This document shows, piece by piece, positions 14,637 through 26,853 of a stretch of DNA of 32,052 nt. Source of the stretch: Deltaproteobacteria bacterium. GTDB lineage: Bacteria > UBA10199 > SBBF01. Both the position numbers and the translations under genes were made by a program. Position 1 is the stretch's first letter, and every line of letters begins with the position of its first letter. The notes under the pieces were generated by a model, which saw only the letters and a program-made list of their open reading frames with translations, made no database searches and was not told the origin of the DNA. The stretch covers positions 1-32,052 of the forward strand of contig JACPFC010000050.1 of assembly GCA_016183175.1 (NCBI GenBank), written 5' to 3'.

Positions 14637-14649
14637 TGATAACCGTTCG

Positions 14650-14774
14650 CAAACAAAGAAAAGTCCCTTTGTCTTCGCAATTTTCGTAAGCCGCTTAAGA
14701 GGTGGATTGTCTTGTCGGCGGATGTGGCTGGCGGGAACGAAAATTGCTTCGCCAAAAGGACTTCTCTTTGTTTG
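14650..14774. repeat. Imperfect 38-bp inverted repeat, MITE-like element
   Basis: The left arm 14650-14687 (CAAACAAAGA at its outer end) and right arm 14737-14774 (TCTTTGTTTG at its outer end) are complementary at 32 of 38 positions, with about 50 bases between them. The loop includes CCGCTTAAGAGGTGGATT and GGCTGGCGGGAAC, which resemble the core of the element at 25534-25699. The right end abuts the recO start (14778), so recO lacks a standard leader. Confidence 0.75.
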
Positions 14775-14777
14775 TAT

Positions 14778-15614
14778 ATGCTTCATAAAACCACCGCCAT
14801 TATTCTTAAAAAAATTCCCTATTCCGAATCGGATCTGATTGTCTGGTGGCTGACCACGGAGGGGAAAAAACAGAAGGGGTTCGCCCCCGCGGGGAGGATC
14901 TCGCGAAAGCGGTTTGCCGGCGCACTCGACCTTTTCAACCGGGTGGAGCTCGTCTATTCCGAACGAAAAGGGGATGAGCTTTTTTTTCTCAAAAGCGCGG
15001 CTCTGGATAAAGGGATGGAAGGGGTCAGGGACGATCTCTCCAAATTCGCGGTTGCCTGCTATTTTGCCGAGATGATTCTGGAGTTTTTGCAGGAACGGCA
15101 GGCGCTTCCGGATGTCTACCGCATGTTCGATCGTTTCCTTCAGGCCATCGACGGGGCCGGGGCGCTTTCGACTCCTCTTATCCCGCTGATGGAACACCAA
15201 TTGCTGACCCTTTTCGGCTTTCAGCCTTCGCTTTCGGCCTGCGGCCTCTGCCGGCGGAAAATTTCGCCCGATCTTCAGTATTTTTTCGATGGCCGGCAGG
15301 GGAGCGTTGTCTGCTCACGCTGTTCCGAAAATTTGTCCGTTCCGGGCCCTGGAAGGGCTCCCAGCCCTGGGAGGGCTCCCAGCCCGGGGAGGGCGCCCAC
15401 CGATTCGCACCCTTTAAGCTATGAGGCCATCTCCGGTCTTCTCGCCTCCGTCGAACATGACCCCTCGAAATGGCTCTCCAAAGGGTGGGAGCCCTCCCAG
15501 GGCTGGAAGACCGATCATGTCGCCCAGACGCGCCGGGCCTTTGAATATTTCATCCAATACACGGCGGGAAAACCGTTCAAGTCACTCCGGTTTCTCTCAC
15601 AGATTCTTTCATGA
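14778..15614 (+). CDS. recO: DNA repair protein RecO
   Basis: 278 aa from ATG 14778 (MLHKTTAIILKKIPYSESDLIVWWLTTEGKKQKGFAPAGRIS), the OB-fold start of RecO. A zinc-finger pattern CGLC...CSRC lies near the middle, and the C-terminus ends TRRAFEYFIQYTAGKPFKSLRFL. RecO loads RecA on SSB-coated single strands with RecR in the RecFOR pathway. Between the zinc finger and the C-terminus there is an inserted 18-bp repeat (GRAPSPGRAPSPGRAP), and an inverted copy lies further on (15487-15506). The insert is in a likely flexible region, so the protein may still work. A hairpin element directly precedes the start, and no good ribosome site is seen. Confidence 0.9.
   Translation: MLHKTTAIILKKIPYSESDLIVWWLTTEGKKQKGFAPAGRISRKRFAGALDLFNRVELVYSERKGDELFFLKSAALDKGMEGVRDDLSKFAVACYFAEMILEFLQERQALPDVYRMFDRFLQAIDGAGALSTPLIPLMEHQLLTLFGFQPSLSACGLCRRKISPDLQYFFDGRQGSVVCSRCSENLSVPGPGRAPSPGRAPSPGRAPTDSHPLSYEAISGLLASVEHDPSKWLSKGWEPSQGWKTDHVAQTRRAFEYFIQYTAGKPFKSLRFLSQILS
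15344..15399. repeat. Three in-frame 18-bp tandem repeats in recO
   Basis: Three near-copies of GCCCTGGGAGGGCTCCCA encode GRAPSPGRAPSPGRAP. Each unit is itself near-palindromic. An inverted 20-bp copy (15487-15506) is the exact reverse complement of 15361-15380. Confidence 0.8.
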
Positions 15615-17705: not shown

Positions 17706-17798
17706 GTGCCCGGGTTCCCGAGTGCCTGTGTGCCAGAGTTTACAGATCTTGGACGCGGGCACACGGGCACACGGGCACACGGGCACTCGGGCACTCAC
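17706..17798. repeat. GC-rich tandem and inverted repeat between dctP and dctQ
   Basis: The right side contains five 8-bp units: GGGCACAC three times, then GGGCACTC twice (about 17757-17796). The left side (17706-17735, GAGTGCCTGTGTGCC) is a near-perfect inverted copy of GGCACACGGGCACTC. Together they can form a hairpin directly before the dctQ start, with no ribosome site between. Confidence 0.75.
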
Positions 17799-25527: not shown

Positions 25528-25533
25528 AAATAG

Positions 25534-25699
25534 CAATTCAGTCTCGGTGTCTGCTTTCGGTTTTGTCGGGACTCGCGGTTTATTTAATCGCCACTTGAGC
25601 TGTTGATTCTCGCTTAGTTTGTTCCGGTTGGCGATGAACATTAAGGTTGCGCTCAAACACGCCGACAAAACTCGAAAGACATCCACCGAAACCGAATTG
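25534..25699. repeat. Imperfect 36-38-bp inverted repeat, MITE-like element
   Basis: The left arm 25534-25569 (CAATTC outer end) and right arm 25662-25699 (GAATTG outer end) pair along nearly their full length, with a few mismatches and two single-base bulges. About 92 bases lie between them. The centre includes CCACTTGAGCTGTTGATT and GGTTGGCGATGAAC, which align with the loop of the element at 14650-14774. Confidence 0.75.
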
Positions 25700-25710
25700 C
25701 CACAAATAAA

Positions 25711-26853
25711 ATGCAATTTGAATTAAACGAAACCCAAAAAATGATCCAACAGATGGCGCGGGATTTTGCCAGAGAGGAGTTGGCCCCCGCCGCCGCCGAG
25801 CTGGATGAAAAGGCGGAGTTTCCAAGCCGTCACCTCAAAAAGATGGCCGAACTCGGTTTCATGGGGATGATGATTCCTTCGGTGTGGGGGGGTTCGGGGC
25901 TCGATACCGTCAGTTACGTACTTGCCCTGGAGGAAATTTCTGCCGCCTGCGCCTCCACGGGCGTCACCATGTCGGTGAACAATTCCCTCTATTGCGGCCC
26001 TGTCAATAAATTCGGCACGGATGAACAGAAGAAGAGATATCTCACTCCCTTCGCTCGCGGTGAAAAACTGGGAGCCTATTGCCTTTCCGAACCGGGAACC
26101 GGATCGGATGCCGCGAATCAGCAGACAACGGCGGTGCTTAAGGGGGATAAATATATTTTGAACGGGACGAAAAACTTCATCACCAACGGCCCGAATGCCG
26201 ATGCGATGATTGTTTTTGCGATGACCGACAAGGCGAAACGGCACAAGGGGATCTCGGCGTTTATCGTTGAAAAAGGTTTCAACGGTTTTTCTGTCGGAAA
26301 AATTGAAAAGAAGCTCGGCATCCGTGCTTCCTCCACCTGCAGTATCGTCTTGCAGGATTGCGAAGTCCCCAAAGAGAACATTCTCGGCAAAGAGGGAGAG
26401 GGTTTTTCCATCGCGATGAACACGCTCGATTATGGGCGAATCGGCATTGCCACACAGGCGCTCGGCATCTCACGAGCCGCCTTCGAAGCGGCGGCAAAAT
26501 ACGCCAAAATCCGTGAAGCTTTTGGTCAGGCAATCGCGAGTTTTCAGGCCATTCAATGGATGATTGCCGACATGTCCACCCGGATTGCCGCCAGCCGCCT
26601 GTTGGTCCATCGGGCCGCCTGGATGAAAGATCAAGGCAAGCCTTGCACGCTGGAGGCGGCGCAGGCAAAACTTTATTCCTCCGAAACATCCAATTTTGTC
26701 ACCAACAAGGCGGTGCAGATTCACGGAGGCTACGGCTACTGCCGCGAATATCCGGTGGAGCGTTATCTGCGCGATGCGCGGATTACGGAGATTTACGAGG
26801 GGACATCGGAAATTCAGCGGTTGGTGATTGCGAGGAATCTCTTGAAGGACTAG
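25711..26853 (+). CDS. Acyl-CoA dehydrogenase (short-chain, butyryl-CoA-type)
   Basis: 380 aa. It has the ACAD signatures YCLSEPGTGSDAANQQTTAVLKGDKYILNGTKNFITNG and QIHGGYGYCREYPVERYLRDARITEIYEGTSEIQRLVIARN. The Glu of YEGTSE is the base of the short-chain class. FAD-dependent; it oxidises butyryl-CoA or runs in reverse with an electron-transfer flavoprotein, which is not in the window. With the three genes upstream it completes a C4 acyl-CoA cycle. The hairpin element lies directly before it, and no good ribosome site is seen. Confidence 0.95.
   Translation: MQFELNETQKMIQQMARDFAREELAPAAAELDEKAEFPSRHLKKMAELGFMGMMIPSVWGGSGLDTVSYVLALEEISAACASTGVTMSVNNSLYCGPVNKFGTDEQKKRYLTPFARGEKLGAYCLSEPGTGSDAANQQTTAVLKGDKYILNGTKNFITNGPNADAMIVFAMTDKAKRHKGISAFIVEKGFNGFSVGKIEKKLGIRASSTCSIVLQDCEVPKENILGKEGEGFSIAMNTLDYGRIGIATQALGISRAAFEAAAKYAKIREAFGQAIASFQAIQWMIADMSTRIAASRLLVHRAAWMKDQGKPCTLEAAQAKLYSSETSNFVTNKAVQIHGGYGYCREYPVERYLRDARITEIYEGTSEIQRLVIARNLLKD

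Follow-up and report, generated by a model that had tools for sequence, protein, structure and literature searches.

A large imperfect hairpin lies directly before recO in the stretch of DNA analyzed here (the window, 32,052 nucleotides from a draft genome of a Deltaproteobacteria bacterium, G000), and it raises the question of what kind of element it represents and whether it is kin to another hairpin about 11 kb downstream. The original prediction was that the two belong to one dispersed family, on account of similar strings in their loops, and that this family is either MITE-like or a structured RNA. We consider it likely that the hairpins at 14650-14774 (A) and 25530-25703 (B) stand for two families of non-autonomous, MITE-like mobile elements, i.e., long imperfect hairpins that carry no gene and would be mobilized in trans.

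The two hairpins and their families

Hairpin A occupies the gap between a gene for a PfkB-family sugar kinase and recO, and its arms are separated by a spacer of 49 nt (Table 1). The predicted RNA fold of a 165-nt stretch containing it reaches -60.4 kcal/mol, compared with -38.8 ± 4.1 for shuffled sequences (z -5.28), and none of 200 shuffles folded as well. Hairpin B, first placed at 25534-25699, is found between the genes for an enoyl-CoA hydratase and an acyl-CoA dehydrogenase; it folds at -63.7, compared with -44.9 ± 4.25 for shuffles (z -4.42). Both hairpins thus stand as proposed. Another imperfect inverted repeat, with 26-nt arms that are 85% complementary, is seen at 17714-17794 of the window, in the gap after a gene for a DctP-type solute-binding protein.

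Table 1. Coordinates of the element features in the window.
Feature	Position	Strand	Remarks
Probable degenerate left-terminal motif ATAAC (RTAAC) of the family A copy	14639..14643	+	RTAAC is enriched outside A arms
Family A hairpin, left arm	14650..14687	+	Length 38 nt; pairs with 14737-14774 at 84% complementarity; the genome has 27 strong copies
Family A conserved core (GCCGCTT...GGCTGGCGGGAA)	14688..14736	+	Alignment A2, 37 copies
Family A hairpin, right arm	14737..14774	+	Complementary to left arm; recO start codon next, at 14778
Family B copy, left target-site duplication AAATAAAA	25522..25529	+	8/8 match with 25704-25711
Family B element, 174 bp, ends ATAGC...GCCAC	25530..25703	+	Family consensus GTAAC...GTTAC
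Right target-site duplication AAATAAAA	25704..25711	+	Final position supplies the A of the start codon for acyl-CoA dehydrogenase

Both hairpins proved to be copies of dispersed families. A BLAST search with hairpin A retrieved about 24 copies, 77-91% identical, from the window's own 2.35-Mb draft genome. The genome-wide covariance search that had been suggested as a check, here with a model built from 37 family A copies and not from the two window copies, returned 27 strong and 3 weak matches in the same genome, and about 27-29 in a genome of a sister genus (G002). In the alignment of the 37 copies (A2) an AAGCCG block is invariant and a GGCGGGAA block nearly so. When family A was sought by DNA in 39 other relatives, G002 was the only one to contain it, with no match in the remaining 38; a degenerate pattern of the A core likewise had no match in viral contigs or in a collection of genomes from 84,980 species, from which near records may be left out. 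Family B has 20 full-length and about seven partial copies in the window genome, i.e., about 27 places, and is nearly limited to it. G002 holds a minimal copy (L077), in which the core is almost absent (L077:1500-1603), and a divergent one (L151). A third G002 match lies on contig G002:C146 (L088), which shares 99.8% identity with a contig of G000 along 3168 bp; this G002 contig is probably misbinned, since the true orthologue (L150) is 85% identical. At three further loci (L055:1501-1766, L056 and L058), B arms surround a different, GC-rich palindromic interior. Across the two families the copies are 75-91% identical, with E values down to 1e-44, and the elements measure 125-174 bp, with no gene within. 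For a protein encoded in the window, the best matches among named relatives come from Deltaproteobacteria MAGs and reach 81% identity.

The proposed kinship of the two hairpins did not survive comparison at the level of the families. Local alignment of the loops of the two window copies gives a score of 20, compared with 14.2 ± 2.7 by chance, which is borderline (p about 0.05). The consensus cores of A and B show no detectable homology (p = 0.76), and copies compared one against another average 15.6, with 15.5 for shuffles. We therefore treat A and B as two families and not as one, and have dropped a kinship of cores that had seemed convincing by eye. What they do have in common is the layout, with long arms around a short conserved core, and a tendency to a terminal RTAAC/GTTAY motif. 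Family B ends in GTAAC...GTTAC. In family A, the 30 nt next to an arm on its outer side contain RTAAC in 24 of 78 flanks, compared with 3 of 78 further out, and GTAACAG in 11, compared with none further out. It may be that the two families share a mobilizer.

Mobility and target sites

To compare individual sites, we looked for the genes flanking the G000 copies in about 0.87 Mb of G002, which makes up some 46% of its genome. Orthologous sites in G002 are empty for three family A copies, namely those at recO (L001/L087), L005/L175 and L019/L099, and for one family B copy (L039/L150). From these empty sites in the sister genome, both families are mobile. At recO, G002 has CTATGATAGTAACGCACAAAACC uninterrupted and without the element. 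Therefore, in G000 the insertion has split the first recO codons, and the present start is the ATG just past the hairpin. Further into recO (15346-15512), GC-rich direct and inverted repeats encode PSPGRAP repeats, where the match with the orthologue in G002 shows a gap.

Target duplications, which had been proposed as a further check, were found for family B and not, as a rule, for family A. Across 19 B copies, the 8-mers just outside GTAAC/GTTAC agree at 3.8 of 8 positions, compared with 2.1 by chance (z 5.6), and the 8-bp offset scores highest of all offsets scanned. The match is 8/8 in the window copy and in L044, and 7/8 in L043 and L035. In the window copy, the left duplication includes the stop codon of the upstream gene, and the flanks, when joined, give GGGAAAATAAAATG. 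Read as GCGGGAAAATAAAATG, this is a close stop-start junction resembling that of an insert-free homologue (L188, 68% identical). The position of this copy was suggestive of a preference for insertion between ribosome-binding site and start codon, which we do not claim; Shine-Dalgarno-like motifs precede 6 of 25 element-adjacent starts, compared with a baseline of 129 of 362, and are not clearly rarer. For family A there is no significant duplication overall, and none is clear at the window copy; one A copy (L089) has a perfect 8-bp duplication, ACACCGTT. The lack of a general duplication could be expected if most A copies are old or have eroded ends.

Most copies of both families are tightly intergenic, often with less than 15 bp left on either side. 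The genes around them run in the same direction as the element in 21 cases and in the opposite direction in 18, and are convergent in 15 and divergent in 8. Six of about 70 copies fall within called open frames, two or more of them at gene starts. This placement suits insertions tolerated mainly in spacers and not a polar regulatory element; a cis-regulatory role with fixed polarity was dismissed because orientation is random. One promoter-proximal site holds a B copy in G000 (L040:1500-1672) and an element with an A core and unique arms in G002 (L089:12867-12988); the two families have thus used one position. Within the A core at L146:8164-8350 there is a 111-bp double-hairpin element with AAT at both junctions, and an overlapping contig (L183:3930-3976) is without the insert; by this comparison, another palindromic element landed within an A copy. 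REP-like palindromes (GGATCCCCGC..) are present at L127:5741-5834 and at about 2460-2500 of L186, in spacers that are occupied by A or B elements in G000.

IS66 elements have GTAA ends and 8-bp repeats, which suggested IS66 as the helper. However, the IS66 transposase (PF03050) is absent from G000, G001 and G002, and this candidate was dismissed. Transposases of IS256 and IS1595 are absent from G000 and G002; DDE_Tnp_1 is absent from G000, and its single instance in G002 lacks matching ends. The window genome has no intact Y1 (RAYT) transposase, only a 70-codon Y1 fragment scoring 28 bits. That is, among the five transposase families searched in this draft assembly, no autonomous partner with the same ends was found.

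Arm covariation and core turnover

The arms covary strongly. Double substitutions are seen in 15 of 36 arm pairs in family A and 17 of 36 in family B, where 94.7% of the cells of the consensus structure are paired; none of 500 shuffles reaches the observed covariation scores, and shifted pairings score far worse. Among the mismatches in the arms, however, A-C is about as frequent as G-U, the ratio of G-U to A-C being 15:13 for A and 11:21 for B. Six A sites are common to both genera. At shared sites both arms have often been altered together (L017/L099, L021/L092, L023/L091 and L024/L092), e.g., from AAAAGGGG to AAAGCGAG in both arms of L017/L099. The cores at shared sites are no closer to each other than to random copies, with a mean identity of 0.81 both within and between genomes and ranks from 4 to 37 of 41; they are often inverted or replaced, and at 3 of the 6 sites they are inverted. 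In L089, L166, L168, L171 and the B copy L151, the outer arms are wholly different yet still complementary. In both genera, two A loci, L024:1498-1631 and L023:1503-1636 (orthologues L092 and L091), have the element in frame between a start codon and a segment resembling a signal peptide, with the core inverted between the genera.

Taken together, the joint change of arms without G-U bias, the turnover of cores and the differing outer arms point to a turnover of arms at the level of DNA rather than to selection on RNA. DNA-level correction is favored because selection on one RNA strand would favor G-U intermediates, and RNA-level selection on the arms was dismissed for want of a G-U excess. 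The core may fold as RNA or as single-stranded DNA. The changes at shared sites could alternatively reflect variant copies that inserted independently at the same place. A bolder proposal, which we put forward with considerable doubt, is that the hairpin would be kept by continually rewriting one arm at the DNA level with the other as template, so that termini drift, the core flips, and what persists is the fold and not the terminal sequence.

Explanations, known systems and significance

The alternative half of the original prediction, structured RNA, would make A and B host-functional RNAs, or modules for mRNA processing, stability or termination, kept by selection on the folded transcript and dispersed only secondarily. 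The double substitutions, the stable folds and the six sites shared by two genera agree with this, as does the excess of G-U over A-C in the core helices (104:2 and 53:3), although part of that excess follows from the selection of these helices by energy. Yet the arms show no preference for G-U over A-C, orientation relative to genes is random, orthologous sites are empty, and cores at shared sites resemble each other no more than random copies do, half of them being inverted. Neither hairpin matches Rfam at the gathering score, and a relaxed search gave no credible weak match, only a spurious plant miRNA far below the cut-off. We hold this explanation to be improbable, and least suited to the arms. 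A folded single strand could instead be what moves, read by an HUH/Y1-type or other hairpin-reading enzyme as in REPs or attC, in which case only fold and core would matter and the arm sequence would be free. Such movement would account for conserved cores inside variable yet complementary outer arms (L089, L092, L166, L168 and the B copy L151) and for REP-like palindromes in the same spacers of relatives (L127, L186). The 8-bp target duplications of B tell against it, no Y1 enzyme being known to leave them, and so do the lone Y1 fragment and the lack of cassette arrays; its probability appears lower still. Chance inverted repeats with randomly similar loops, for which one could cite the borderline similarity of the window copies, are refuted already by about 27 copies of each family and by fold z scores of -5.3 and -4.4, leaving a negligible probability.

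The MITE-like half of the prediction, including the absence of an obvious transposase, is what we retain. Judging from the genomes compared, the elements are short, contain no transposase gene, have terminal inverted repeats, are dispersed in mostly intergenic copies and leave orthologous sites empty. Counting against this reading are the lack of an autonomous partner among the transposase families searched, the absence of a significant duplication in family A as a whole, and the wholly different outer arms of some copies, which would be unexpected if a transposase has to recognize these ends. In the MITE-like reading, a cut-and-paste (DDE-type) transposase, lost or unassembled here, would have acted on GTAAC...GTTAC ends with 8-bp staggered cuts, and insertions would have survived mainly in the short, dispensable stretches between genes. 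The arms might then have been kept complementary by DNA-level correction across the hairpin, with one arm converted to match the other or copied by template switching, and the core could be inverted when the arms recombine.

ERIC sequences are intergenic imperfect palindromes with no known transposase. Set beside them by description, A and B are alike in size class, intergenic location, imperfect palindromy and lack of a known transposase, and differ in host group and in B's 8-bp duplications. A review (PMC10969869) covers ERIC copy numbers and also QMITE2-type prokaryotic MITEs, which have 7-9-bp direct repeats and are mainly intergenic. Prokaryotic MITEs such as QMITE2 of Coxiella burnetii share with A and B their short length, intergenic location, structured core and terminal inverted repeats of tens of bp; by description, A and B differ in that no parent IS was found, outer arms vary around a conserved core, and the core can be inverted at shared sites. 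Many Rickettsia palindromic elements are read in frame with genes (PMC10969869), as A is with the gene starts at L023 and L024 in both genera, whereas most A and B copies are intergenic and the window A copy has an in-frame stop codon. REPs and REPINs with RAYT (PMC3116915, PMC3733652) are also dispersed intergenic hairpins without a transposase of their own; A and B are much longer, B has 8-bp duplications, and the genome has no intact Y1 transposase. Bacterial stem-loop sequence families, including bcr1 (PMC2267715), are likewise dispersed intergenic families with a common predicted fold, and differ, by description, in their hosts and in the arm covariation of A and B without G-U bias.

In the literature and databases searched, we found no earlier description of either family; the MITE-like kind to which they would belong is well known. 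A and B are thus ordinary in kind, and it is the turnover of their arms that is unusual. They add two abundant families of mobile elements for a little-studied, uncultured lineage, in which some spacers between tightly packed genes hold different palindromic elements in different relatives. If the rewriting of arms is true, covariation in bacterial hairpin repeats would be no proof of RNA function, and the count of G-U against A-C mismatches would provide a simple test to separate DNA-level from RNA-level causes.
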